A DNA stretch of 62,835 nucleotides from Flavobacteriia bacterium (GTDB lineage Bacteria > Bacteroidota > Bacteroidia > Flavobacteriales_D > Crocinitomicaceae). The translations under genes and the position numbers were made by a program. The notes beneath the pieces are model-generated. The model saw nothing but the letters and a program-made list of their open reading frames with translations. It had not been told where the DNA came from and made no database searches. Below, piece after piece: positions 19,408 to 32,298 of the stretch; positions within the stretch are counted from its first letter, which is position 1; every line of letters begins with the position of its first letter. The stretch lies in the NCBI GenBank assembly GCA_947455255.1, contig CANGOA010000002.1:1-62835 (forward strand). Reading direction: 5' to 3'.

Positions 19408-19854
19408 ATGGCAGTAATACGTACACCAAAAAAAATAATTTTATCGAGTTTAAATACCGAAAAAATTATTTCATTTACTCTAATTGGAATTTTTTGTTTT
19501 TTACTTATAATAAGTGCATTCTTGTATAATTTTATAGGTATGAGTTGGGAGAATTTATTCATTCATTGTATGATGATTTGTGTCTTTATTTTATTCTTTT
19601 TTTCATTAAATAAAATAAGTCAAGTAAGCATAATAGGAGATTGTGTCATCGTGAAAAAATCAAACTCTAGTCGAATAGTAACCCCAATAAAAGCAATCAA
19701 AAAAGTACGACATATACCAATATTTAAATTTCAGTTGTATTCTTTAGAATTTAGATTAGATGGACATAATCAAAAAGTTCGATTCCTTAGTACACTAGAT
19801 AAAATATCTGACATTCAGTTACTAACTACTCACAAACGTTCACAAGCTGTCTAA
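19408..19854 (+). CDS. hypothetical two-helix membrane protein
   Basis: The 148-residue protein has two strong hydrophobic segments (about 21-42 and 51-70), followed by a beta-rich soluble part of about 75 residues (VSIIGDCVIVKKSNSSRIV, LEFRLDGHNQKVRF). That layout resembles small bacterial membrane proteins with a PH-like tail, but the match is only by eye. It is convergent with the TerC gene, one base apart. Confidence 0.6.
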   Translation: MAVIRTPKKIILSSLNTEKIISFTLIGIFCFLLIISAFLYNFIGMSWENLFIHCMMICVFILFFFSLNKISQVSIIGDCVIVKKSNSSRIVTPIKAIKKVRHIPIFKFQLYSLEFRLDGHNQKVRFLSTLDKISDIQLLTTHKRSQAV

Positions 19855-19855
19855 T

Positions 19856-20605
19856 TTATTTTCTTTTCACAAATGAAAATACTATTGGAACAATAAAAAT
19901 TCCAATAGTCAATAATGAAACAAACATGTCTGCAGTTTCACTTTTCATAAAAATAGAAAGAGATTGTGTTGGAAAAAAATGTTCGTAAATAGAGAATGAT
20001 AATTTCAGACCTAAAATTGCGATCACTAAAAAGGCAGATGATTCCAGGAAAGGGAATTTCTCCATCAAATTGACAAACCACTGAGCAACAAATCTCATTG
20101 CTAGAATACCAATAAAAACTCCGATACAAATTAAAATAGTATTTGGCGTATAAGCTACAGCGGCAAACACATTATCTATTGAAAAGGCCATATCCATTAA
20201 CTCTACTAATGCAATAGTAGCCCAAAAATTACCAAAATATCCAACTGTTTTTCTGTATAACCAATTAGCATTTTTATCTACTGATTCTTCATTATTTGGA
20301 GGAAGTTGTTTTTTCTTCCACCAGTCAAAAACCAAGTATAATAAATAAAGTCCGCCAATTGGTTTTAACCACCAAATTTTAATTAAAATAGAAGCAAATA
20401 ATAATGCTAAACCTCTAAATAAATACGCTCCTAAAATACCATATTTCAATGCTTTTTTACGTTGATTATCAGGCAAATCAAGTACCATAGTAGCTAGAAC
20501 AGCAGCATTATCAATAGATAATAGACTTTCAATCAACACTAAATTGCCAATTATAATTAATGATTGAGTGGGGTTATCAAAGATTTGTTGAACTAAAACG
20601 TGCAT
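19856..20605 (-). CDS. TerC family integral membrane protein
   Basis: The 249-residue protein has about seven transmembrane segments and the two acidic family motifs ESLLSIDNAAVLA (27-39) and MDMAFSIDNVFA. TerC/Alx proteins are linked to metal ion (manganese, calcium) handling and tellurite resistance, possibly loading metals onto exported proteins. No ter operon partners are near, so this is probably a housekeeping member. The ion is not inferable. Confidence 0.88.
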   Translation of the reverse strand: MHVLVQQIFDNPTQSLIIIGNLVLIESLLSIDNAAVLATMVLDLPDNQRKKALKYGILGAYLFRGLALLFASILIKIWWLKPIGGLYLLYLVFDWWKKKQLPPNNEESVDKNANWLYRKTVGYFGNFWATIALVELMDMAFSIDNVFAAVAYTPNTILICIGVFIGILAMRFVAQWFVNLMEKFPFLESSAFLVIAILGLKLSFSIYEHFFPTQSLSIFMKSETADMFVSLLTIGIFIVPIVFSFVKRK

Positions 20606-20633
20606 AAAAATATATTTGGGACAAAGTTAAACT

Positions 20634-20661
20634 AAAAATGCCCATCAAGGATGAGCATTTT
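20634..20661 (-). terminator. terminator of the TPR/urea-transporter operon
   Basis: On the minus strand the stem AAAATGCTCATC / GATGGGCATTTT has a 3-base loop, one G-U pair and a T-run. It lies 20 bases after the stop of the last TPR gene. Confidence 0.75.
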
Positions 20662-20680
20662 AATTCAAAAAAAGAAAAAA

Positions 20681-21301
20681 TTATTTTGTTTTAAGAATTG
20701 TATCATATTTTTTCTCATCCGGGCTTAAAAGCAAAGCCTTTTTAAAATATGTCACAGCTTCATCTTTATTCCCTAAATTAAATTTAATCCAACCAGCTAA
20801 ATTTACACCATCGAAATTAAAAGGATAACAATTAATATAAGTAGTGATGAAAGGTAATGACGCTTTATAATCAGCTCTATTATAATAGATCAAAGCTAAG
20901 TTGTAATTAGCAACAGCATGTGTCGGATCAATTGCTAAAACAGCTTTATATTGTTCTATCACTAAATCCCATTTTTCTTGTGAAGCGAGTGTATATATAT
21001 ATCCCATTCTAGCCTCTAAACTTTTCGGGGATAGTTCAACTGCTTTTTTATAACGTAAAGCAGCGTCATTAAATTTAGCGTTGCAATAATACAGCCATGC
21101 TAAACGAACATTAATTTCATAGGTGTTCAAATTTGCATATGGTGTCAAAACCTCAATTGCCTTGGCATATTTTAGGTTATATTCTTCTATGTAACTTTGT
21201 TTAAATGCATTTCTCATTTCAATTTCATTTTGTGAAAATGAGAAAATCGTCATTAAAATAAACAAACCTAGAGTTGCAATTTTTTTCATTTCATTTTTCA
21301 T
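20681..21301 (-). CDS. exported TPR-repeat protein (paralogue B)
   Basis: This 206-residue protein has a signal peptide (KKIATLGLFILMTIFSFSQ) and about four tetratricopeptide repeats, for example AVANYNLALIYYNRADYKAS and GWIKFNLGNKDEAVTYFKK. It is probably periplasmic or surface-exposed and scaffolds a protein complex. It is a clear tandem paralogue of the next gene upstream, with the same length and repeat order. It is the last gene before a terminator, so it belongs to the PqqD/ATP-grasp operon. The second ATG (21289) is an equally good start. Confidence 0.82.
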   Translation of the reverse strand: MKNEMKKIATLGLFILMTIFSFSQNEIEMRNAFKQSYIEEYNLKYAKAIEVLTPYANLNTYEINVRLAWLYYCNAKFNDAALRYKKAVELSPKSLEARMGYIYTLASQEKWDLVIEQYKAVLAIDPTHAVANYNLALIYYNRADYKASLPFITTYINCYPFNFDGVNLAGWIKFNLGNKDEAVTYFKKALLLSPDEKKYDTILKTK

Positions 21302-21329
21302 AATTTTGATTTTTATTAATTTACATTAT

Positions 21330-21950
21330 TTATTTTATTCCCAACACTTTATTAAAACTTGTATCGTAAGGGTTTACCATTAAAGCCTTTTTGAAAAAAA
21401 CGTATGCTTCTTCTTTTTTCCCAACACTATATTTAACCCAGCCAGCTAAACTATTTCCATCATAATCAAATGGATAAAGATTTACATATTTTTGCAAATA
21501 TTTCCATGAATTTCCATAATCACCACGATTGTAATAAATTAATGACAGACGATAGTTGGCAGTTGCGTTATACACATCAATCTTTATGATTGCCAAATAA
21601 TTATCTACGACTTGGTCCCATTTTTCTAATGCACCTAATGGATAAACAATACCAAGTTTTGCCTCAATACTAAGTGGCATTTTAGCAATTGCTTTTTTAT
21701 AATAAATAATGGATTCAGTATACTTTCCTGCTTTATAGCTTAACCAACCTAAACGTAAATTTAATTCATAGGAGGTAGGTTCATATACACCCATCAAATC
21801 CTCCATTGCTTTTTGATATTTCAACTGATATTCAGAATCATAACTTTTTTTCAAAGCATCACGCACAGCATTGTCGGATTGAGAAAAAGTGAAACTTGAG
21901 CAAACTATTAGGAACAATAGTACCCAAGATTTTTTACTTAAAATTTCCAT
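21330..21950 (-). CDS. exported TPR-repeat protein (paralogue A)
   Basis: The 206-residue product has a signal peptide ending near FTFSQ and about four TPR units (NLRLGWLSYKAGKYTESIIY, ANYRLSLIYYNRGDYGNS, GWVKYSVGKKEEAYVFFKK). Its residues line up along the whole length with the following gene, so the pair arose by duplication. The start overlaps the end of the TPR/barrel gene by 13 bases, which suggests coupled translation. Its partners are unknown. Being in the operon suggests it works with the barrel protein. Confidence 0.82.
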   Translation of the reverse strand: MEILSKKSWVLLFLIVCSSFTFSQSDNAVRDALKKSYDSEYQLKYQKAMEDLMGVYEPTSYELNLRLGWLSYKAGKYTESIIYYKKAIAKMPLSIEAKLGIVYPLGALEKWDQVVDNYLAIIKIDVYNATANYRLSLIYYNRGDYGNSWKYLQKYVNLYPFDYDGNSLAGWVKYSVGKKEEAYVFFKKALMVNPYDTSFNKVLGIK

Positions 21951-23341
21951 ACTAGATTTAAGATTAATGAATGATTTAAATAATTATCTGTATAAGTCAT
22001 GAAAGTAGATTTCTTTGTACTATAATAACGATCATAGCTTGATTCTCTTTTCAATACGTCATAACGAAGACCAAAATTAAGTTTTTGCGATAAATAATAA
22101 GTAAGATTCAAACCTGATTTCATCGTGATTATGTCCGAAATATTATATACTACATAAGCATTTCCTTCAGTAAAGTATTTAAGATTTCCTCCATAAAAAT
22201 AGGTCTCATACCACAGTTTTTCTGTCAACTTCCCTCCTATTTTCGCGAAATAAACAGTTCTAGTATTTGATCGATCTTTCGACAAACCTAACCCTGCACT
22301 TATATTAAGATTAAAATTACCGAAAGGCAAATAATTAAGTTGTGAGGAATATTGGGTGATTGAAATTGCATCAATATAATTATATCCTAAGCTAATGGTA
22401 GGAATAATTTTACCAAAATTTTTAGACAGACTTATGTTTGTTACAAAATTCCCTTTAAAAACCTTATAGTCCGCATAACTATAATTAAAAGTAGTTGAAT
22501 CATAACTCGCTTTCATTTTAGTTTGAGAATAATACATGTATTGTCCACCAACTTGAAGGTTGAAATTTTTAGGAAGTGTAATTGATAAACCTGTATATGC
22601 TTGGTATTGTGATAAAGTATATGATTTAGCAACATCATTAATCGATGGTGTTAGAGCTAAATTAATTGCATCCCAAACATAGGTTTTAGTATAAATATGT
22701 TGTTCACGATTATTCTGAACTAATGATAGACCTGAATACGCCTTGATACGTTTAGAGATTGGATAACTAAACCCAAATTGATAATACAGAATCGATTTCA
22801 TGCGATCAGATTCAGCATAAATACCATTTCCATGAAGGGAGGTGTCTTTTGTGTCTTTCGCTAGAAAAACCGAACTGTCTTGTTTATTCGAATAATTTGT
22901 AAACTGATAGCCCGATTCAAAAATAAATGATTTTTGAAACTTAATTTGTTTCATATAGAATTCTTGATAGCTAAATGGCATTTTAGCAATTATTAGCTTA
23001 GCATCTTCTATATTCTCCATATACAAATATGAATAAAATAAAAACTCCTTTGTATACATATCAGAGGGATAATACTCAAGTGCTTTACGAAGATGAATCG
23101 AAGCCATATAAAACTCATTTTTATTAAAATAAGAAACACCTGTTCTAACACGTAGGAAGTAAGAATCTATTCCTTCTGACAATGCTTTATGGGTTAATTC
23201 TACTAACTCTTTGTGCTTAACTTTAGTAAAATAAACATAGGATGCACTATCTACAAAAGACTCTTTAAGTTTAATATTTTTTTGGGACCAAGTAACAATG
23301 GATACCAAGCTAAGAAATATTAATAAATGTAATTTTCGCAT
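21938..23341 (-). CDS. TPR plus outer-membrane beta-barrel protein (YaiO-like layout)
   Basis: The 467-residue protein has a signal peptide (LLIFLSLVSIVTWSQ), an N-terminal helical TPR-like part at about 25-150 (SYFNKNEFYMASIHLRKAL), then a barrel of alternating strands rich in Tyr and Ser that ends in LILNLVWKF with a C-terminal aromatic. This TPR-then-barrel layout is like the YaiO group. It overlaps the urea-transporter/M23 gene by 22 bases. It could be the outer-membrane component of the operon's export or surface machinery; that role is inferred from context only. Confidence 0.8.
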   Translation of the reverse strand: MRKLHLLIFLSLVSIVTWSQKNIKLKESFVDSASYVYFTKVKHKELVELTHKALSEGIDSYFLRVRTGVSYFNKNEFYMASIHLRKALEYYPSDMYTKEFLFYSYLYMENIEDAKLIIAKMPFSYQEFYMKQIKFQKSFIFESGYQFTNYSNKQDSSVFLAKDTKDTSLHGNGIYAESDRMKSILYYQFGFSYPISKRIKAYSGLSLVQNNREQHIYTKTYVWDAINLALTPSINDVAKSYTLSQYQAYTGLSITLPKNFNLQVGGQYMYYSQTKMKASYDSTTFNYSYADYKVFKGNFVTNISLSKNFGKIIPTISLGYNYIDAISITQYSSQLNYLPFGNFNLNISAGLGLSKDRSNTRTVYFAKIGGKLTEKLWYETYFYGGNLKYFTEGNAYVVYNISDIITMKSGLNLTYYLSQKLNFGLRYDVLKRESSYDRYYSTKKSTFMTYTDNYLNHSLILNLVWKF

Positions 23342-25551
23342 ATAGCAACAATTTTAGTTTTTGAAGTTGTAATTATAAATTCATTGATTTTATTCACTCT
23401 TAAATTTGTACTATACTGAAACGCTTTCGATTTAAAACCTAATACTCTAATTTCTGCAGAAGATTCTAAAATAATTTCAGAAGTAATATTTATATCGTCA
23501 ATAAATACATATTTCATTGTAAAATTTGCACTTACAAAACGATAAAATGGCGCGAAAAAATCTTGTATAAAGTTTAAAAACTTTATAGAAATAGTAGCAA
23601 TTGGGTAATTTTCGATTATGATTAAATCTTGATAATATCCCAGTGCTAATTTATAATTCGCTAAATAAAAATGATATAACAAAGACTTTTTAGATCCGTA
23701 GAAGCTTGTGAATACAATCATATTTCCATCATTATAAAAATATGCTACTGCTTTCGTGTCGTGGCAAAAAATATAGGAAGCATTGATACTATCTGTGAAA
23801 ACTTCCCAATTTTGTGTTTTCAACTCTTTACCTTCCTCTTTAATTTTCCAATTTAATTTAGCTCCAGGAATTAGTTCATAAGCTGACTTTAACAAAGGAT
23901 TTACTTCAATACCTTGAATTAATTCACCTTCTATTGGTTTAGAAAATGTATGAAGGCTAAATTTTTTATTTTCACGTTTTATGTAATATGCAAGAGGAAA
24001 ATCTAAAGTTTTAGCACCAATAAAAGGGGATTCCTGTAACTGGAAATGAATGTGAGGCTCAGGAGACCGTCCAGAATTTCCACAATAAGCTATAATCTCC
24101 CCTTTTTTAACAAAATCCCCAACTCCATATTTCAATGAACCCATTTTAAGATGACTTACTTGACTATATAATCCATCTGCATGATAAATCACCATCGAAT
24201 TACCCCAGTTTTGAAGTGTATTTACTCCTTTAACATCATTATCTTCGACATTATCCACTATTGCTGAAACATAACCATCTGCACAAGCTACAACAGGTTT
24301 ATTAAAGCAATAAAAATCATCTACAGTTTGACCTGGATTTTGGTAGGATTTCATTTCATTATCCAAAATAATAAAATCAAATGCCTTGCTCCATTCTCCT
24401 AAATGTGTAATTTTTCCATCATGAGCTTGTGAGACCATCCATTCACCCCAAAAAGGTAAATGAATTGGAAAAAAGTTAAACAAACGCAATCTATGATTAG
24501 AGTTAAGAAAATTATATAAGTTTTTTTCTGGACTAAATTCCTGGTGGTAAACTCTATGAATATACTTAAATGAAACTCGATAATTTAGCACATACAAAAA
24601 TAAAATAGTTAGTAACGTAAATGGTAAAGAATAAGGCGCCAACCCAACCATGTATAATATTTTGTTTAAACCAAATAAAATAATAATTAATAAAGGAGTA
24701 AGTACAACAGTGATTAAGTAACTAGCAAAACATGGAACCAAATAAATCCCACCTATTGCAATTGCTAAAAAAATGAAATTTAGACCAATAAACTTCTCAT
24801 AAAAATCTGCTACATCACCTCCTAAAATTGGGTAGAAAAAATAGGCCGTTACAAATCCTAAGATCGATAAACTAAAAGCAATACGTGAATAAATCAATAA
24901 ACCCAAGGCAATTAGTAGTCCTGAAAGAACATTAGATTGAAAAAATAAAGATGATAACGACTTTAAATAGACATTTACCATTTTAGGGAATTGAAGAAAA
25001 TTCTGTTCCAATTGATCTATGATTTCCATCCAGTGTGCCAAGTTAAAACCAGAAGCTTTTTGTTTTTCATTCAAGGAATAGATAAGTTCAGGATGAACCT
25101 GCATTGTGTGCATTGACGGAAACGCACTAAAAACAAGCCAAATAGATATTAAAAATGGAAAACTTAAAGTTGGTAAATTATATTTATGTAATATACCATG
25201 TACCAAAAACGAAATCAAAGTAGAGAAAATTCCTACACAAATAATGACTAATAATACCGTTTGGTTAAACGAATAAAAATGAGCAATTCCACTAGCTACC
25301 AACATTGCATCATATCCGTGATATCCTTTTCGAATAAAATCTTTATTCAATCCTATAATACGGGAAAAAACATTTGCAGAAATAACACCTATTAATCCAC
25401 AAATACCAGCTAAAGGATCTATAAAAGATGCCAATAAAAGTAACAGACCAAAAAGTACATTATTTGAAAAGAAAACTACTGCATAACTATTGACAATAGT
25501 GTCGAAGCTATACAGTAATCCTTTTTTAGCTATAGAAAGCCATTTATTCAT
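23320..25551 (-). CDS. urea-transporter-like channel fused to an M23 peptidase domain
   Basis: Residues 1 to about 330 are a multi-span membrane domain with two related halves, like the SLC14 urea transporters. Visible urea-transporter-like features are NLPTLSFPFLIS, GLNFIFLAIAIGG and YSLPFTLL. Residues about 370-500 are an M23/LytM fold: HLGEWSKAFDF, PVVACADGYVSAIVD, NWGNSMVIYHADGLYSQVSHL, VKKGEIIAYCGNSGRSPEPHIHFQL. HIHF is the usual second metal motif. The first motif (HxxxD) is less clear, so catalytic status is uncertain. A beta-rich tail of about 240 residues follows. The gene lies 9 bases after the decarboxylase. I infer a small-amide channel tied to cell-wall or peptide trimming. Confidence 0.82.
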   Translation of the reverse strand: MNKWLSIAKKGLLYSFDTIVNSYAVVFFSNNVLFGLLLLLASFIDPLAGICGLIGVISANVFSRIIGLNKDFIRKGYHGYDAMLVASGIAHFYSFNQTVLLVIICVGIFSTLISFLVHGILHKYNLPTLSFPFLISIWLVFSAFPSMHTMQVHPELIYSLNEKQKASGFNLAHWMEIIDQLEQNFLQFPKMVNVYLKSLSSLFFQSNVLSGLLIALGLLIYSRIAFSLSILGFVTAYFFYPILGGDVADFYEKFIGLNFIFLAIAIGGIYLVPCFASYLITVVLTPLLIIILFGLNKILYMVGLAPYSLPFTLLTILFLYVLNYRVSFKYIHRVYHQEFSPEKNLYNFLNSNHRLRLFNFFPIHLPFWGEWMVSQAHDGKITHLGEWSKAFDFIILDNEMKSYQNPGQTVDDFYCFNKPVVACADGYVSAIVDNVEDNDVKGVNTLQNWGNSMVIYHADGLYSQVSHLKMGSLKYGVGDFVKKGEIIAYCGNSGRSPEPHIHFQLQESPFIGAKTLDFPLAYYIKRENKKFSLHTFSKPIEGELIQGIEVNPLLKSAYELIPGAKLNWKIKEEGKELKTQNWEVFTDSINASYIFCHDTKAVAYFYNDGNMIVFTSFYGSKKSLLYHFYLANYKLALGYYQDLIIIENYPIATISIKFLNFIQDFFAPFYRFVSANFTMKYVFIDDINITSEIILESSAEIRVLGFKSKAFQYSTNLRVNKINEFIITTSKTKIVAICENYIY

Positions 25552-25560
25552 CCTTCAAAA

Positions 25561-26925
25561 TTACAAATTAAACGTTTTCAAATGATCTGGCATTCTTTCT
25601 GGCTCAGTAATTGTTTTAACTGTTTCGTTTTCTCGAATAATATGAGAATTTCCATTTGTATCAATCAAAGTTACTTTTGGTCTCATAGCAATAAATTGCA
25701 TCCATTGTGTCATGTTGTATGCACCTACTTTATGAACTACCACATGGTCTCCTCTATTTAATGCAGGTAGAGTTACACTAGACCTTACAACATCAATATT
25801 CATACATAACGGACCATAGATTACCATATCTTCTGTATGTGAAGAAAACTCTTGTGCAGGTGTAATTTTGTGTTCGTACCAGAATGCCGTGAATAATATG
25901 TTAACTCCAAAATCCATAATTGTTGCTCTTCTACCGTCAGATAATCGCTTGTTTGCAATTACACTTCCTAATAGGTAACCAGCATCATCAATCATTGCAC
26001 GACCTGTCTCTAAAATTAATAATGGTAAATCTTCTTTTTTGTATCCGTAATTTAAGATAGTATTTGTGATTACCTCAGCGAACTCATCAATGGATGGAAT
26101 CATATCTGGTCCAGGTAAATAAGCACCTCTAAGAGTATTTGCTGATGGAAAACCTCCTCCTAAATCTAAATATTGAATCGTTTTGTTAAATACATACTTG
26201 ATATTAACAGCTAAATCAGAAAGTTTAGAAGCAGCTACTGCATAAGCATTTGGATCTAACATAAAAGTTCCAATATGACAGTGAAGACCAACCATTTCTA
26301 GGTATTCAGAAGCCATTATTTTATTAATTGCATTCCAAGCTTGACCAGACTCATAATTGAATCCAAAACGATCCCACATTGGGTATACACCAGTATCCAT
26401 GTTTACACGAATTGCAACTTTTGCTGTTTTTTTCAATTCTTGCGTCAATTCAATTAAATCGTATAATTCATCAAAATGATCAACGTGGATATATGAATTA
26501 TTTTCAAGTGCAACTTTTAAATCTGCTTTTGTTTTTTCAGGACCATTAAAAATGATTTTATTTCCAGGAACGCCGTTTTCAATCGCTTTTGTATATTCAA
26601 AAATAGATACAACTTCAGCCCAAGAACCTTCTTGGTGAAATACGTTACACACTGCATCGATGTAATTTGTTTTGTAACTCCAAGCGAATTGTACTTTTGG
26701 ATAACGCGTTTTAAAAGCACGTACCGCGTTTTGGTAAGTTTTACGAATAGTTCTTTCAGAGATAACGAAACATGGAGATCCATACTTGTTAATTAATTCT
26801 TTTACAGAAACACCATCGATGTGTGTAAAAGGAGCATATTCCGTTCTTGTGCCGAATTTATTCATTAATCCTGTATTCATTTTACGGATAGCAGGACGTT
26901 CGTATTTTAATTTTTCAGTTTTCAT
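25561..26925 (-). CDS. fold-type III PLP-dependent decarboxylase
   Basis: This 454-residue enzyme is of the alanine-racemase/DAP-ornithine decarboxylase fold. The PLP lysine is K85 in AWSYKTNY. Other family signatures are HCHIGT (215-220), YLDLGGGFP (252-260, phosphate-binding Gly-rich loop), LETGRAM (305-311) and YGPLCMNIDVV with C374, the active-site Cys from the second subunit. It differs from LysA by a longer N-terminus and by its context, and no lysine pathway genes are near. Likely substrates are amino acids or diamino acids, giving an amine. It lies 23 bases downstream of the ATP-grasp gene in the same operon. Confidence 0.88.
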   Translation of the reverse strand: MKTEKLKYERPAIRKMNTGLMNKFGTRTEYAPFTHIDGVSVKELINKYGSPCFVISERTIRKTYQNAVRAFKTRYPKVQFAWSYKTNYIDAVCNVFHQEGSWAEVVSIFEYTKAIENGVPGNKIIFNGPEKTKADLKVALENNSYIHVDHFDELYDLIELTQELKKTAKVAIRVNMDTGVYPMWDRFGFNYESGQAWNAINKIMASEYLEMVGLHCHIGTFMLDPNAYAVAASKLSDLAVNIKYVFNKTIQYLDLGGGFPSANTLRGAYLPGPDMIPSIDEFAEVITNTILNYGYKKEDLPLLILETGRAMIDDAGYLLGSVIANKRLSDGRRATIMDFGVNILFTAFWYEHKITPAQEFSSHTEDMVIYGPLCMNIDVVRSSVTLPALNRGDHVVVHKVGAYNMTQWMQFIAMRPKVTLIDTNGNSHIIRENETVKTITEPERMPDHLKTFNL

Positions 26926-26948
26926 TTTGTTTCGTATTAAATAGTTAT

Positions 26949-28004
26949 TTATAATTCTCCGAAAGCGGATATTTTTTGAAATTCAGATACATCTGTAATT
27001 AAGTCCCATGCATAACGGATAAATAATTTGCCAACAGCATAAGACGTATAAGGTTCTACTTTTTCACCTAGCGCTAATTTAACGAGTGATGCTGGTTGAT
27101 TTTGTCCAGCTCCAACTGTTAAGTATATCCAAGCTGGAAAACGAGGATTCACTTCCATGATGTAAGGCTTTCCATCATTTGTACGCATGATTTCGATTTC
27201 GAAACCACCTCTCCATTTTGTAGCACTTATAAATTTTGATGCCAAATCGATCAGAGACTGTTCTTCAAGCGTGATTCCAGCCCATGCTTTACCTTTATCT
27301 GTGATAAACAATTTACGCATAGGAACAGCAGAAATAGTATTTCCTTCTCCGTCACCTAAAGCTGCAATGTTTACTTCTGTTCCTGAAATAAACTCTTGTA
27401 CAATAATAGGAAGTCCCCATTTAGCATTCAATTTATGATATGCCTTTTGTGCTTGTTCTAAGGTATAAGCAACTGTAGCTTCGTAATATTTACCTTTAAC
27501 AACGATAGGATATTCAAATTCTTTAGCTACTCCAGCTAATTCACTAACATCATAAATAGTTTTGTCTCTAGGAATTAAAAATCCATGCTTTTCTCCAAAC
27601 TTGAATAGATTTACTTTATCTCTTGCTTCAAATTGTTCATTAGAAGGTAAAAATGTCGCTATACCGATTTCTTTAAGTTGTTTCGAAATTTTGATGAAAT
27701 TGTGTAATTCCGCATCAAAATTTGGAATGATAACATCAATTTTTTCAACTGAATGAATGTATTCCAATCTACTCATCAAAGTATCAGTTCCTGCAGCTGG
27801 ATATGGTATTTGATACACTTTATCTGCAATACCTTCCATATAAATTCCAGGTTCAAGAGACTCATAGGATAATCCGATGATTCTAACGTCGAAATCCTCA
27901 CAATCGCGGATCCCACGTATTACAGCAACTCCTGGTCCAGGACTATCAACAGCATTTAAGCCAGTGACTGCAACTGTAAGTTTACGTTTTATTGAACTAG
28001 ACAT
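26949..28004 (-). CDS. ATP-grasp ligase
   Basis: This 351-residue protein has an N-terminal Rossmann-like preATP-grasp domain (LTVAVTGLNAVDSPGPGVAV) and an ATP-grasp core: PIVVKGKYYEAT with K170, VQEFISGTEVN (202-212), GGFEIEIM (266-273) and the metal-binding MEVNPRFPAW with E284 and N286. ATP-grasp enzymes join a carboxylate to an amine or thiol through an acyl phosphate. It is not a known CarB, PurK or Ddl by context. Next to a PqqD-like protein it may be a peptide- or amino-acid-ligating enzyme. It overlaps the PqqD-like gene by 8 bases. Confidence 0.87.
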   Translation of the reverse strand: MSSSIKRKLTVAVTGLNAVDSPGPGVAVIRGIRDCEDFDVRIIGLSYESLEPGIYMEGIADKVYQIPYPAAGTDTLMSRLEYIHSVEKIDVIIPNFDAELHNFIKISKQLKEIGIATFLPSNEQFEARDKVNLFKFGEKHGFLIPRDKTIYDVSELAGVAKEFEYPIVVKGKYYEATVAYTLEQAQKAYHKLNAKWGLPIIVQEFISGTEVNIAALGDGEGNTISAVPMRKLFITDKGKAWAGITLEEQSLIDLASKFISATKWRGGFEIEIMRTNDGKPYIMEVNPRFPAWIYLTVGAGQNQPASLVKLALGEKVEPYTSYAVGKLFIRYAWDLITDVSEFQKISAFGEL

Positions 28005-28242
28005 GACTAACTAAAAAATGGTCTTGTAATTGAGAAATAAAATCTTCATAATCTTTCTCGAACGCACCTGGTTCAACATCATATTTTGCACTCATTTCTT
28101 TCTTAATCTCAGTTAGTTTTTTTCCTTCTTTCATTAATCGAATGATATCAGCACCAACTGCATTTGTTGAGAAAGAATCTCCGTTAGATGGGTTAAAGAT
28201 AAAACCGCTATCACTAACCGCTAAATTTGAATTTATTTTCAT
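27997..28242 (-). CDS. PqqD-like small protein (RiPP recognition element fold)
   Basis: The 81-residue protein matches the PqqD pattern: a short beta-hairpin (SDSGFIFNPSNGDSFST), then helices with NAVGADIIRLMKEGKKLTEI, then a final acidic helix (YEDFISQLQDHFLV). PqqD-like domains bind leader peptides and present them to modifying enzymes. No radical SAM gene is near. Its partner here is the overlapping ATP-grasp gene. I saw no small precursor peptide gene beside it. It is the first gene after a 128-base gap that holds the putative LytTR site, so it probably starts the operon. Confidence 0.82.
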   Translation of the reverse strand: MKINSNLAVSDSGFIFNPSNGDSFSTNAVGADIIRLMKEGKKLTEIKKEMSAKYDVEPGAFEKDYEDFISQLQDHFLVSHV

Positions 28243-28278
28243 GTTTTCTATTTTTAATATTTGTTGTTATCTACACTT

Positions 28279-28286
28279 CAAATATG
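28279..28286 (-). promoter_or_regulatory. weak -7 promoter element upstream of the PqqD-like gene
   Basis: On the minus strand it reads CATATTTG, one mismatch from TAnnTTTG. It lies 36 bases upstream of the PqqD-like ATG and 25 bases downstream of the direct repeats. There is no TTG box, as expected if an activator is needed. Confidence 0.4.
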
Positions 28287-28311
28287 GAAAATAAAAGAAT
28301 TGAAGAAAATT

Positions 28312-28344
28312 AAAAGATACGAAGGGGGATAAAAAAGATACGAA
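28312..28344 (-). promoter_or_regulatory. paired direct repeat, candidate LytTR operator
   Basis: AAAAGATACGAA occurs at 28312-28323 and again at 28333-28344 (TTCGTATCTTTT on the minus strand). The start-to-start distance is 21 bp, two helical turns, which is the geometry used by LytTR-domain regulators. The site lies directly between the LytTR response-regulator gene and the PqqD-like gene and just upstream of a weak -7 box. Confidence 0.6.
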
Positions 28345-28370
28345 AAGGTGATTTTCATCGAAAAACAAAT

Positions 28371-29099
28371 CTAATCTTCTTCAGAAATTTCTAATCCTAA
28401 AGATTTATATAAAGGTACTTTATAGCTATCTCCAATGAATAGTTCTGTTTCTTCAATGGTAAGCCGTGTTTTCTTAATCGATGAAATTTTACTCAAATTA
28501 ACGATATACGATTTATGTACTCGTTTAAAACCTAATAATTCTAATCTTTCCTCTATAGACTTCATACTCATACGCGTAACAATTGGTTTGGAAGAATTAG
28601 TCAGAAATATTTTGATATAATCTTTCAATCCTTCGATGTATGAAATATCAGGAATATTCACTTTCACCAAACTGTAATCAGAATTTACAAATAGATAATC
28701 TGGTGGCAATTGCTTTAAAACAGATGGTGTAGAATTATTGATTAAACTATGTGATTCTTTTACTTTAAGTACGCTTTTATAAAAACGATCAAAAGAAAAT
28801 GGTTTTACCAAATAATCAATCACATCTAATTCGAAACCTTCTAAGGCATATTTTTTATAGGCTGTAGAAAAAATGATGTACGGTTTTTGTTTCAACGACT
28901 GAACAAATTGAATCCCATTGATTTCAGGCATTTCAATATCTACAAAAATTAAGTCTATTTGTTCAACTTCTAGTACCTCATACGCTTGGATAGCATTTCT
29001 ACAAGTTGTAACCAATTGTAAAAATGGCACCTTTTGCACAAAATCAGCCATCATTTCCAATGCCAATGGCTCATCATCAATACAAATACATTTAATCAT
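28371..29099 (-). CDS. LytTR-family response regulator
   Basis: The 242-residue protein has a receiver domain (about 1-120: CIDDEP acidic pocket, phosphorylated D54 in LIFVDIEMPEING) and a C-terminal LytTR DNA-binding domain (DISYIEGLKDYIKIFL, RMSMKSIEERL, FKRVHKSYIVNLSKI). It works with the sensor kinase whose stop is one base upstream. Just downstream, in the gap before the PqqD-like gene, is a 21-bp-period direct repeat of the type such domains bind, so the PqqD/ATP-grasp operon is the likely target. Confidence 0.93.
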   Translation of the reverse strand: MIKCICIDDEPLALEMMADFVQKVPFLQLVTTCRNAIQAYEVLEVEQIDLIFVDIEMPEINGIQFVQSLKQKPYIIFSTAYKKYALEGFELDVIDYLVKPFSFDRFYKSVLKVKESHSLINNSTPSVLKQLPPDYLFVNSDYSLVKVNIPDISYIEGLKDYIKIFLTNSSKPIVTRMSMKSIEERLELLGFKRVHKSYIVNLSKISSIKKTRLTIEETELFIGDSYKVPLYKSLGLEISEED

Positions 29100-29100
29100 C

Positions 29101-30153
29101 TTATAAAATAGCTAGAGACAAAGATACATAATACCAGTTAGATTCTTTTCTAACAGTGAGTTCGTATTTAGAAGGATATAATAAATCCAAACGACGTTTT
29201 ACATTTACAAGCCCAATTCCTTGGTTTTTTGAATCAAATTTGGAAATAGATTCCTTAAATTTATTGTTTACATCTAATTGAAACTTATTGTTTTTAATAT
29301 AAATGTGAATTTCAATTTCTGGAGAATCAATAACGGATGTTCCATGTTTAAATGCATTTTCGATATAAGGAATCAATAACATAGGCTCAATATTCAATTC
29401 TAACTCAGAAGGAATATCTAGGTTTTGGAATATCTTAACAGTATCTCCGAAACGAATAGTTTGTAGATCAATATAATCAGAAATATATTCTAATTCGTCA
29501 TGGATAGAAACTTTATCTTCATCTGATACATACAACATATATCGAATAATAGATGCTAATTTTAACAAGCTATTCTCTGCTTTGTCTGATTTTTTACGCA
29601 CTAATATTATACTACTATTTAATGCATTAAAAATAAAATGTGGACTTATTTGAGAACGAAGAAACGATAATTCAGTTTTTAAATTTTCGGTCTCTTTTTC
29701 TTTCCTTAATTTTTCTTCACGAAAACGATCAGTCAATAAACGGTAGGAAATACTAATGAAAAGAATAAAAAGTAAAGGAAGCAATAGAGCGATCAATTGA
29801 TTTCCTCGAATACTATCTGGCGATGGTATTCCTCGACCTAGATTTGGAGGTGGTATATAAGTTGGTAAAAAAGGGAAAATCAAGTATGAGATCCAAAGAA
29901 TTGTAATAACCAATATGACAAGGAATACAATATAAATTAACGTGCTTTTCTTTAAGATTTTCGGTATTAGAAAAGTACTATTAAAGTAGAAAACGAAGAT
30001 AAAATAAAGGTGATTAACTAATAAATGTTCATCCAAAAGTTGAATTCCCTCATTTGGTATTGGTTGTACACCTTTAGGATCTACAAAAGGAACTAAATAA
30101 AAAGCTATCCAAAAAAGAAGATGTAAAGTGAAATTAAAGAGAGAAATTTTCAT
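29101..30153 (-). CDS. LytS-type sensor histidine kinase
   Basis: The 350-residue inner-membrane kinase has four hydrophobic segments (about 5-22, 46-62, 72-94, 119-137), a short coiled-coil, then a His_kinase domain with H172 in SQISPHFIFNALNSS and an ATPase part (LLIPYIENAFKHG, QGIGLVNVKRRLDLLY). There is no large periplasmic sensor, so it probably senses the membrane or a small molecule. It pairs with the LytTR regulator (1-base gap) and starts 3 bases after the PorE-like gene, so the three are one transcript. Confidence 0.92.
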   Translation of the reverse strand: MKISLFNFTLHLLFWIAFYLVPFVDPKGVQPIPNEGIQLLDEHLLVNHLYFIFVFYFNSTFLIPKILKKSTLIYIVFLVILVITILWISYLIFPFLPTYIPPPNLGRGIPSPDSIRGNQLIALLLPLLFILFISISYRLLTDRFREEKLRKEKETENLKTELSFLRSQISPHFIFNALNSSIILVRKKSDKAENSLLKLASIIRYMLYVSDEDKVSIHDELEYISDYIDLQTIRFGDTVKIFQNLDIPSELELNIEPMLLIPYIENAFKHGTSVIDSPEIEIHIYIKNNKFQLDVNNKFKESISKFDSKNQGIGLVNVKRRLDLLYPSKYELTVRKESNWYYVSLSLAIL

Positions 30154-30156
30154 CGA

Positions 30157-32298
30157 TTATTTTTTTTTCTTTTTCCCTTTTTTAGTGTCTTTTTTAGCTG
30201 TTTTTAAATTCTCAACCGGAGAAAGTAACTTTTGTTCTGCCAAATCTGGGTCAAAGTCCATTCCTCTTACAAAACCTTCTGTTCGACGATTTAACGAATG
30301 AAGTTTTTCAAATTTAATTGGATCTTTAATTTTAAACTGCGTAATGTATTTTTCTGTTAACACAACAGTTTTTCCTTTTTCGTCAATCCATTTTACTGGT
30401 TCTTTTTCACCTTTTCCAACAGGTATCAATCGTCTAATATCAATTCCTTTTTCTTCAACTAGGTATTGTACACATTCACGAGCTCTATTGTTAGAAAGTT
30501 TTAAATTGAACTCATCATTACCTCTACAGTCAGTATGAGAACTTAACTCCAAAATCATTTTAGGATATTTCATCAATACATCATAAACAAAGTTTAATGA
30601 ATCCTTAGAACTAATAGTAGAATCTTGAAGTAACTCCCATTTACCAAATGCATAACGAACTTCAGGAATACGTATTTTCTCTTCTGGTATCAATAATGGT
30701 ACATCAATAATAAAATTTTGATCATAACGTAAACCACGTGTTGTAAATTGCGTTTCACTTTTATTTTTCTCAGCACCAACACGGTAAGTTAGTATAGTAT
30801 AGTCTGTGTTTTCTTTAATTACACGTTCTCCATTTGCTTTATTTTCAAAGAATATCACTCCTTTCTTGTCTGTAAATCCTTCCACTTTGGAGCTATCTGA
30901 ACCTATAATAACTACCTTCACACTTCCTAATTTCTTTTCAATTTGACCTAGTTTACTTACAATGATTTTGATATCATATTTGTTAGGAGGTAATTGATAT
31001 TTGTATAAATCAGTTTTAAATGTCTTACCTAATCCGGTTTTTCTTTCTGATGTAAAATAACCTTCTGTATCGTTTATTTCAATCAAACTAAATTCATTGG
31101 CTTCAGAATTACGTGGGTATCCAATATTTTCAGCTTTCTCCCATGAATTTTTTCCGTTTGCAGAATTTTTTATTGCTTTAAAAATATCCAATCCACCTAG
31201 CCCTGGTCTACCGTCTGATGAAAAATATAAATCTTCATAAGCATTGAAAGTTGGAAACATTTCGTTGCCTGCAGAATTAATTTCAGGCCCTAAATTTACA
31301 GGAGGAGACCAGATATCCGCTTTTTTGGAATAAGTTGAACTCCATAAATCTTTACCTCCAAAACCGCCTGGAAGTTCTGCAACAAAAATTAAAAAATTAC
31401 CATCTGCAGAAACACATGGATGACCAATTGAAACTGAATCCGCATTTTTCAATGGTAATTTAATTGGTTCAGCCCAATCTTTACCTCTTAGTTCTGATAC
31501 CCATATTTCACATCCTAGATTTTTATTTTTTTCATATGGACAACGTGTAAAAAACATTTTTTTGAATTTGCTGTCAAAAGCAACAGTTCCTTCATTAAAT
31601 TCTGTGTTTATTTTTTCACCTGGTAATAATACAGGTTCACCAAAATTTCCTTTTTTATCAATTTGAGTTAACCACAAATCCATATGAGTTTCACCAGTTC
31701 TCGGATCTATATCACCTCCTAAAGGACTTGTTCTGTCAGAACTAAAAACAATTGAAGTTTTCTTTTTATCTGCAAAAACAGTAGACATATCAATACTCTC
31801 TTTATTTAATACTGAGATATTTGTAATAATATGATTAGTTTTATTAGACATGAATTTAGCAACCTCTTTGCATGCTACTATACCAGCATCAGCTCGTGTA
31901 TCTGTCGGAGCTAAAGATTTGTAAGCATTATAATTCTCAATCGCTAAATTGTAATCTCCCATGTATCGAATCATCTCTGCATAGTAGAATAAGGCTTGAG
32001 GATTAATCGACTGATAATTAACCACTAATGCTTTTTGATACCAATCTAAAGCATTTTTATAATCTTCCAACATACGATAACACTCCCCTGTTTTAAAAGC
32101 CATATCCCCTTTTCGTTCAGAAGCTTTTCGACTTTTTGGATTTACTTTATCAAAAGCATGTATTGTGAGTTTAACAGCCTCAATATAATTTTCATCTTGA
32201 AATGCCTTATTTGCTTTTTTTATCTCTTTAGGCTCTTGCCCAAAAGCCTGAAAAGCAAGTGTTAACACACAAAAAAAGAATATATTACGAAATAACAT
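30157..32298 (-). CDS. PorE-like TPR/beta-propeller/OmpA-domain protein
   Basis: With the ATG at 32298 the protein has 713 residues and a signal peptide (LFRNIFFFCVLTLAFQAFGQ). Domain order is TPR repeats (about 25-140), PD40/WD40-type propeller blades (about 165-430, with repeated VFSSDRTSPLGG-like strands), a carboxypeptidase-regulatory-like fold (about 440-530), and a C-terminal OmpA peptidoglycan-binding domain (LELSSHTDCRGNDEFNLKLS). This order is that of PorE, a T9SS accessory protein. The Lys-rich end (KKGKKKKK) is unusual. It is linked to a LytS/LytTR pair and not to PorXY, so its exact role is open. Confidence 0.85.
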   Translation of the reverse strand: MLFRNIFFFCVLTLAFQAFGQEPKEIKKANKAFQDENYIEAVKLTIHAFDKVNPKSRKASERKGDMAFKTGECYRMLEDYKNALDWYQKALVVNYQSINPQALFYYAEMIRYMGDYNLAIENYNAYKSLAPTDTRADAGIVACKEVAKFMSNKTNHIITNISVLNKESIDMSTVFADKKKTSIVFSSDRTSPLGGDIDPRTGETHMDLWLTQIDKKGNFGEPVLLPGEKINTEFNEGTVAFDSKFKKMFFTRCPYEKNKNLGCEIWVSELRGKDWAEPIKLPLKNADSVSIGHPCVSADGNFLIFVAELPGGFGGKDLWSSTYSKKADIWSPPVNLGPEINSAGNEMFPTFNAYEDLYFSSDGRPGLGGLDIFKAIKNSANGKNSWEKAENIGYPRNSEANEFSLIEINDTEGYFTSERKTGLGKTFKTDLYKYQLPPNKYDIKIIVSKLGQIEKKLGSVKVVIIGSDSSKVEGFTDKKGVIFFENKANGERVIKENTDYTILTYRVGAEKNKSETQFTTRGLRYDQNFIIDVPLLIPEEKIRIPEVRYAFGKWELLQDSTISSKDSLNFVYDVLMKYPKMILELSSHTDCRGNDEFNLKLSNNRARECVQYLVEEKGIDIRRLIPVGKGEKEPVKWIDEKGKTVVLTEKYITQFKIKDPIKFEKLHSLNRRTEGFVRGMDFDPDLAEQKLLSPVENLKTAKKDTKKGKKKKK

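Follow-up and report, generated by a model that had tools for sequence, protein, structure and literature searches.

A conserved Bacteroidota gene cassette containing a lasso-type recognition element, an ATP-grasp ligase, a FigC-like decarboxylase and a urea transporter–M23 peptidase fusion

We analysed a stretch of DNA of 62,835 nucleotides from a Flavobacteriia bacterium of the Crocinitomicaceae (assembly GCA_947455255.1, contig CANGOA010000002.1, positions 1 to 62,835 of the forward strand), referred to below as the window. It is contig 2 of a 3.04-Mb assembly, which comprises 212 contigs and is 77% complete. The window contains a cassette of seven minus-strand genes, whose predicted products are (i) a small PqqD-like protein, (ii) an ATP-grasp ligase, (iii) a pyridoxal phosphate (PLP)-dependent decarboxylase, (iv) a fusion of a urea transporter (UT) domain with an M23 metallopeptidase, (v) a protein combining tetratricopeptide repeats (TPR) with a predicted outer-membrane barrel, and (vi, vii) two TPR proteins (Table 1). 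A conserved motif, similar to the leader segment read by lasso-type recognition domains, is located at the N-terminus of the decarboxylase.

Table 1. Features of the cassette and its immediate surroundings (positions in the window)
Feature	Position	Strand	Basis
PqqD-like discrete recognition element, 81 aa	27997..28242	-	Pfam PF05402, E 1.9e-11; nearest PDB entries are lasso-peptide B1 proteins
ATP-grasp ligase, 351 aa	26949..28004	-	Pfam PF15632, E 9.6e-13; PF02655, E 1.5e-11
FigC-like PLP decarboxylase, alanine-racemase fold, 454 aa	25561..26925	-	Pfam Orn/DAP/Arg decarboxylase; PDB 7kh2
Decarboxylase N-terminal segment, residues 1-34, lasso-leader-like Y8-E-x-P11-x-I13, invariant K23	26824..26925	-	108 sequences
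UT (SLC14-like) channel (~1-325), M23 domain (~365-506) and C-terminal beta domain (~520-742)	23320..25551	-	PF03253, PF01551; AlphaFold2 model
M23 domain, predicted cytoplasmic	24034..24459	-	H383, D392, H467, H500, H502 invariant in 95/95; topology
TPR and predicted 14-stranded outer-membrane barrel, 467 aa	21938..23341	-	AlphaFold2 model, Foldseek
TPR protein with a signal peptide by eye, 206 aa	21330..21950	-	Pfam TPR
Second TPR protein, 206 aa	20681..21301	-	Pfam TPR
Hairpin, probable intrinsic terminator	20627..20668	-	-16.9 kcal/mol, z -3.41
LytTR response regulator and histidine kinase, directly upstream, possible cassette regulator	28371..30153	-	Pfam
TerC-family membrane protein, directly beyond the hairpin	19856..20605		Pfam

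The seven open reading frames (ORFs) were confirmed at the coordinates proposed in a first-pass annotation of this DNA, which had described a compact operon with junctions of at most 28 bases. From the PqqD-like gene onward, these comprise an 8-base overlap, gaps of 23 and 9 bases, overlaps of 22 and 13 bases, and a gap of 28 bases. Pfam agreed with the proposed identities of the PqqD-like protein, the ATP-grasp ligase, the decarboxylase, the UT and Peptidase_M23 domains, and the two TPR proteins. The hairpin 3′ of the last gene is a probable intrinsic terminator, as the annotation had suggested; only 1 of 200 shuffled sequences folded equally well, although a simple terminator consensus scan did not include this hairpin among its matches.

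The distribution of the cassette was examined in 395 genomes sampled from the phylum Bacteroidota. The ATP-grasp gene (threshold E ≤ 1e-40) was detected in 34 of them, all of which fall within the 45 genomes with a UT match. In ten of the 11 UT-only genomes the UT frames are unfused, with lengths of 280 to 332 residues, and one of these frames contains an internal stop; the eleventh genome shows a weak UT match with internal stops. The cassette was found in 27 of the 171 genera sampled. Besides the window, 32 loci encode the UT/M23 fusion; each also contains the ATP-grasp and decarboxylase genes and a PqqD-like ORF (the copy in locus L038 is weaker, with 24% identity, and lies beyond another ORF), and 30 contain a relative of the TPR gene. 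A scan of a collection of named genomes yielded at least 562 relatives, the best 80 of which were retained. Among these 80, the decarboxylase is present in 80, the PqqD-like gene in 79 and the UT/M23 gene in 73, and the eight absences all occur at contig ends, with 0 to 445 bases remaining. Their recurrent order is pqqD, ATP-grasp, decarboxylase, UT/M23, barrel, TPR, and paired TPR genes were also seen in L063, L064, L066 and L067. The best 80 are labelled Bacteroidota in 78 cases (two of the 80 are Hymenobacter strains, H. edaphi and H. gummosus, loci L106 and L112), the other two being an uncultured bacterium (L114) and a metagenome-assembled Bifidobacterium breve (L137), which is probably mislabelled.

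Conservation and distance counts given below refer to length-limited sets of 112 PqqD-like, 113 ATP-grasp, 108 decarboxylase, 95 UT/M23, 68 barrel and 84 TPR proteins; smaller sets comprised 19 of 33 UT/M23 proteins (A3), 32 barrel proteins (A4) and 31 PqqD-like proteins (A5). Pairwise distances agree with those of the ATP-grasp protein for the decarboxylase (r 0.92), UT/M23 (0.85) and TPR (0.64) proteins, as expected for joint inheritance. Since the ATP-grasp, decarboxylase, UT/M23 and PqqD-like genes co-occur across genomes and loci, the cassette is a genuine, conserved operon and more than a chance grouping, which bears out the earlier proposal that it forms one functional unit.

Spread by plasmids or phages was also considered and found no support. 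The ATP-grasp protein gave one distant plasmid match (29%, Streptomyces, unrelated context), the decarboxylase one plasmid match, annotated lysA, and UT/M23 two phage matches, both to the M23 part only. Residues 390-515 of the latter protein are 41% identical to a frame in an unannotated Staphylococcus phage record. Genome G124 carries two equal-scoring cassette copies on its contig 1, one near each end, which probably reflect terminal redundancy of an unclosed chromosome.

The established role of the recognition elements (RREs) of ribosomally synthesized and post-translationally modified peptides (RiPPs) is to read precursor peptides. The PqqD-like protein is a discrete domain of this kind, as indicated by Pfam and by comparison of its family profile with the PDB. 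The profile matched the lasso-peptide B1 proteins TbiB1 (E 1.2e-13) and TfuB1 (2.8e-9), whereas the PqqD proteins of PQQ synthesis matched only at 0.001 to 0.035; the single window protein matched TbiB1 at 6.4e-6. The nearest NCBIfam models are likewise lasso PqqD families, at 27 bits, which is below their cut-offs of 80 and 70. In PMC13381572, lasso-type RREs are described as recognizing the motif [Y/W]xxPx[L/V/I/F/A]; the leader is paired with a beta strand, its Pro kink is secured by an Asn and, in LppB, its Tyr is hydrogen-bonded by an Asp. PMC10368454 and PMC12710340 also treat YxxPxL leaders and RRE recognition sequences, respectively. When we mapped the PqqD-like family to LppB by motif spacing (a mapping of our own), N27 (112 of 112 sequences) and D64 (108 of 112) corresponded in position and spacing to the Pro-kink Asn and the Tyr-binding Asp, and hydrophobic residues recurred at LppB-like spacing. 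Three further PqqD-like genes (L150, L152, L153) are present in the same genome.

The catalytic domain of the decarboxylase is preceded by a segment of about 35 residues that carries the lasso-leader-like motif [Y/F]ExPx[I/L/V]. Over the 108 sequences, Y8 is conserved in 104 (Phe in the others), E9 in 107, P11, I/L/V13 and K23 in all, and G25 in 106; a stricter regular expression including the glycine matched 90. An anchored form, K..[YF]xxPx[ILV], was then sought in the first 60 residues of each protein, so that all were compared over equal windows. It was present in 107 of 108 decarboxylases and 2 of 68 barrel proteins, and in none of the 113 ATP-grasp, 95 UT/M23, 112 PqqD-like or 84 TPR proteins. 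It was also absent from 20 LysA controls, each from a different one of the 29 cassette genomes with a LysA gene. The catalytic domain begins with a GTP/GSP block, which could be located in 18 of these controls and lies there 13 to 41 residues from the start; in the cassette enzymes the median distance is 46, and the N-terminal extension is therefore genuine but modest.

In the 107 loci with both genes, Tyr8 is accompanied by Asp64 in 103 and Phe8 by Tyr64 in four. PqqD position 22 and decarboxylase position 17, which our mapping would place opposite one another if the two strands ran antiparallel as published, form the top mutual-information pair (z 8.5). The motif itself was found directly in the proteins; from it we infer that the RRE binds this segment and, with good probability, docks the decarboxylase to the ligase.

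The first-pass annotation had noted that the cluster holds neither a radical SAM gene nor a precursor peptide gene, and it had left open that the PqqD-like protein serves a precursor elsewhere. No radical SAM protein is among the seven, and the lasso-leader-like motif was found instead on the decarboxylase. No precursor gene was found in the cluster, and the 1.5 kb around each of 112 cassettes contained no conserved small ORF that we could recognize; our judgement was confined to the 15 largest similarity clusters of small ORFs, which by eye seemed to arise from larger upstream genes read on the opposite strand or out of frame. The genome of the window contains 11 codon matches to YExPxI and 8 to a reversed control pattern. 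Three of the 11 are read within an ORF of at least 25 aa: one in the decarboxylase, one in an ORF of 428 aa and one in an ORF of 32 aa near the end of a locus. A precursor was thus not found, although the absence is not final, as the genome-wide search covered only exact YExPxI in an assembly that is 77% complete. The arrangement typical of graspetides, an ATP-grasp gene beside a precursor peptide, was likewise not recognized around the 112 cassettes, and neither a lasso cyclase (asparagine-synthetase-like) nor a B2 protease was detected among the seven proteins with Pfam and NCBIfam at 0.01.

The cassette shares with lasso B1/RRE systems (TbiB1, TfuB1; LppB of linear polyphosphorylated peptides) a discrete RRE of the PqqD type, including counterparts of the Asn and Asp by which YxxPx[L/I/V] is held, and a segment of this type encoded in the same operon. 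It differs from them in that the segment is part of a full-length enzyme and not of a precursor, and in the lack of the two lasso enzymes named above. A partly similar logic is seen in the butirosin pathway, of which BtrJ is the ATP-grasp enzyme: BtrI, BtrJ and BtrK also combine a small protein, an ATP-grasp ligase and a clade-2-type decarboxylase of the alanine-racemase fold. Unlike BtrI, the PqqD-like protein is no acyl carrier. We rejected the idea that its C-terminus carries acyl or amino groups in the manner of LysW or BtrI, since the C-termini are variable and contain no conserved carrier residue.

The amine-making fold-III decarboxylase of the first-pass annotation stands as a decarboxylase, and it is closest to FigC-type enzymes acting on acyl-amino acids, not to polyamine enzymes. 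The family profile matched the N-citrylornithine decarboxylase FigC (PDB 7kh2) at 302 bits, followed by a diaminopimelate (DAP) decarboxylase at 231. According to PMC7857480, FigC shares a clade with SbnH, AcsE, MccE, BtrK, and DAP and D-ornithine decarboxylases, and the homologs other than the DAP and D-ornithine enzymes are likelier to serve specialized metabolites than polyamines. Residues C374, M375 and I377 are invariant (108/108), and M375 corresponds to FigC Met355, which replaces the acidic residue after the catalytic Cys. In a mapping counted by hand on the profile alignment, the citrate contacts H357, R387 and N389 named in the same paper are replaced by I377 (108/108), Q407 (108/108) and M409 (104/108), while T327, T330 and Y331 correspond to T346 (107/108), W349 (108/108) and Y350 (103/108, otherwise Phe). 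Since the named acid/base contacts of FigC are absent, the substrate is presumably a neutral, amide-type conjugate.

FigC/FslC of rhizoferrin synthesis are the closest solved relatives, with the same Met after the catalytic Cys and, at two of the three positions in the specificity helix, the same residue (Thr and Tyr). The cassette enzyme differs from them in its citrate-contact residues and its N-terminal segment, which cannot be aligned to FigC, and no synthetase of the NRPS-independent siderophore type occurs among the seven proteins. A citrate siderophore was rejected as the product on the basis of these pocket residues. We also rejected the possibility that the enzyme is the LysA of the organism: the residue after the Cys is Met in 108/108 cassette enzymes and Glu in 20/20 LysA controls, the NCBIfam lysA model gives 221 bits against a cut-off of 297.9, and a separate LysA above the cut-off is encoded in 29 of the 34 cassette genomes. 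The ATP-grasp protein is itself strongly conserved, with 60 positions identical in at least 98% of 113 sequences, including E269, E271, N286 and R288. On balance, it seems that the product of this ligase is the substrate of the decarboxylase.

The AlphaFold2 model of the UT/M23 protein (mean predicted local distance difference test score, pLDDT, 87.6) superimposes on the urea channel dvUT with a TM-score of 0.83, normalized by target length, and also gives LytM-type Foldseek matches. The urea-type SLC14 channel proposed earlier is thus supported as a fold (PF03253 and the model), and the positions of the Phe, Leu, Asn and Pro-Phe motifs are largely kept. The standard urea filter is not retained: in the second half of the UT domain the polar positions are replaced, which indicates that it is not a standard urea channel. 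At dvUT position Glu187, neither Glu nor Gln occurs in any of 33 and 95 sequences, and at Thr294 a Thr is found in 3 of 33 and 10 of 95. At the position of Gln24, 25 of 33 and 50 of 95 sequences have Gln (the window protein has Val), and the Thr130 position is mostly Ser. We located these positions by motif alignment. Fusion to a peptidase is a further difference from SLC14 proteins.

The M23 domain retains its zinc-binding and catalytic His and Asp residues in all 95 sequences (Table 1), as expected of a metallopeptidase. Both termini of UT proteins are cytoplasmic. Predicted inside loops of the UT/M23 proteins contain 10.1 Lys and Arg residues and outside loops 1.9, for loop sets that we chose on the canonical UT scheme; the inside value is higher in 95 of 95 proteins, and in 93 (equal in two) when the C-terminal tail is excluded. 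Eight stand-alone UT proteins show a similar charge pattern. No hydrophobic segment was found between TM10, the tenth transmembrane helix, and the M23 domain (highest 17-mer mean, 0.42). The UT topology, the charge bias and the lack of a hydrophobic stretch after TM10 together make it probable that an intact M23 domain, fused to a channel, lies in the cytoplasm. PMC10541013 describes UT as having 10 transmembrane helices and places V175, two residues before the constriction residue T177, in an intracellular pocket. Peptidase-containing ABC transporters offer an analogy, in that a cytoplasmic peptidase is fused to a membrane exporter; the cassette protein has a channel in place of the ABC transporter and M23 in place of C39. 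In genome G005 (L147:9944-12198), the UT and M23 parts occupy two overlapping frames of the same cassette, owing to split genes or a sequence error, and inspection by eye showed no evident signal peptide on the M23 part.

Pfam gave no match to the fifth protein at 0.01. Its AlphaFold2 model (mean pLDDT 89.4) contains TPR-like helices followed by 14 strands, in line with the TPR-barrel assignment of the first-pass annotation and with a predicted location in the outer membrane. Weak TPR matches (E up to 1) occur in most barrel members, with TPR_2 in 25 of 32. In Foldseek, FadL ranked first and BcsC eleventh; the top 11 matches show 7 to 12% identity and a query TM-score of at most 0.46. The protein resembles BcsC and PgaA in joining TPR to a barrel and FadL in having 14 strands; it differs from this group in the low Foldseek values and in that no polymer synthase was recognized in the cassette. 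The ORF family F6 is found in 17 of the 32 fusion loci, usually at the barrel position, and resembles a barrel by eye; the one member scanned had no Pfam or NCBIfam match.

We propose, tentatively, that the cassette is a production line for one small molecule that runs from the cytoplasm to the outside. The lasso-type RRE would bind the YExPxI segment of the decarboxylase and thereby join this enzyme to the ATP-grasp ligase, which would form an amide between a carboxylate and an amino acid's amine. By removing the alpha-carboxyl group of the neutral conjugate, the FigC-type decarboxylase would yield an amine, and the M23 domain, at the cytoplasmic mouth of the UT-like channel, would cut an amide bond. 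The product, predicted to be a neutral amide-bearing amine, would leave by way of the channel, then the TPR protein of the periplasm and finally the outer-membrane TPR-barrel. When these steps are counted as linked, the chain as a whole falls a little short of an even chance; export taken alone is the likelier direction of transport. The earlier idea of a pathway for a small peptide or amine agrees with the ligase and decarboxylase chemistry and with the envelope transport parts, though not in its placing of M23 as a trimmer in the membrane or outer membrane, given the cytoplasmic topology.

Several observations weigh against this proposal. In other systems, TPR-barrel proteins handle polymers. 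The solutes that pass UT channels are very small, and a conjugated amine may be too large for one; the charge bias depends on the loop sets of our choice. A looser form of the motif occurs in 4 of the 20 LysA controls, in two of them within the GTP/GSP block, and YExPxI is likewise present near the start (residue 14) of the 428-aa ORF, which by eye encodes a citrate synthase and is not a small precursor. The four Phe8/Tyr64 loci are mutually related (66 to 78% identity in the ATP-grasp protein), so that the switch probably represents one clade and one event. The motif segment is not clearly enriched in coupling, with 2 of the top 40 pairs (2.9 expected) and 21 of the top 200 (14.6 expected). 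In a tree-based analysis, the pair 22-17 ranked 44 of 24,236, and windows from residues 7 and 8 ranked 15 and 23 of 436 (order not specified); as a contact test, the coupling is mixed. Finally, no LysA above the cut-off was found in the genome of the window or in four others; for the former we attribute this to its 77% completeness.

The strongest rival is an ordinary RiPP pathway, in which the RRE and the ATP-grasp enzyme modify a precursor encoded elsewhere, the decarboxylase creates the terminal amine and M23 removes the leader. The lasso-type character of the RRE would suit such a pathway, ATP-grasp PF02222 is among the markers tying RREs to RiPP clusters in PMC12710340, and graspetides are made by ATP-grasp ligases (PMC8939145). 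Against it stand the results for the surroundings of the 112 cassettes and for the YExPxI matches of the window's own genome given above, and we regard it as unlikely. Distinctly unlikely, in our estimate, is a bolder variant of the proposed production line, with the decarboxylase serving as its own carrier: the RRE would present the N-terminal arm, the ATP-grasp enzyme would load an amino acid onto K23, the arm would enter the PLP site, and M23 would release the product into the pore. K23 lies 10 residues past the motif, close to the expected starting point of a RiPP core, and if this variant were true, it would be a swinging-arm pathway of RiPP parts without a precursor peptide.

Uptake and breakdown is an improbable reading, in which the barrel and TPR proteins import a small amide via UT, the cytoplasmic M23 domain hydrolyses it and the ligase and decarboxylase recycle the parts. 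UT proteins are passive channels, the top fold matches are FadL-type barrels (importers; fatty acid transporters by title), and a cytoplasmic M23 domain would be consistent with it; no catabolic enzyme was recognized among the cassette genes, and clade-2 decarboxylases other than the DAP and D-ornithine enzymes are tied to specialized biosynthesis (PMC7857480). Quite improbable is envelope remodelling, with UT as a mere anchor and M23 as a peptidoglycan hydrolase facing the periplasm with TPR partners: M23 enzymes are usually peptidoglycan hydrolases, and the Foldseek matches include the LytM domains of DipM, Csd and ShyA, yet the charge bias places the C-terminus inside in 95/95, no hydrophobic segment separates TM10 from M23, and the link with the ligase and decarboxylase is strict. 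A polymer exporter, with a polyamide built by the ligase and exported by the TPR-barrel in the manner of BcsC and PgaA, is very improbable despite this architecture and the BcsC match, since the UT pore should not pass a polymer, none of the seven proteins is a recognizable polymer synthase, and FadL outranks BcsC.

No published description of this gene set was found, in accordance with the first-pass annotation, which knew of no such system; our search was thin on subscription literature and an earlier mention is possible. The six-to-seven-gene Bacteroidota set is therefore apparently undescribed. If the proposed production line is true, RiPP recognition has been reused as an assembly or carrier device, with the recognition motif on an enzyme and no precursor found, and this would change how genome miners read orphan RREs. 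A channel that carries an M23 hydrolase on its cytoplasmic side would couple release and export in a new manner. Because the cassette is widespread in Bacteroidota, in records whose names suggest lakes, rivers and groundwater, it is likely to make a metabolite of some ecological reach.

Inspection of the genes next door revealed possible regulators. A relative of the LytTR regulator lies within 2.5 kb upstream, on the same strand, in 16 of 112 loci, and an AraC-type regulator family (L117:7065-7658; one member scanned) upstream of pqqD in 13 of the 80 loci, which suggests that regulators are swapped. The TerC gene was rejected as an eighth member, as it sits behind the hairpin and just 2 of 112 loci (L063, L064) have a relative of it after the cassette. 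An Rfam scan of positions 19800-30500 gave nothing that reached the gathering score. A GNAT acetyltransferase family (L081:2447-2947; one member scanned) is encoded directly upstream of pqqD in 23 of the 80 loci. In more distant members of the phylum, the cassette is often preceded by a protein of about 280 aa (358 aa as called in L052), located just upstream of pqqD in L045, L052, L053, L055, L056, L057, L060 and a few others; both members of this family that were scanned (L052 and L055) carry a type IX secretion C-terminal tail.

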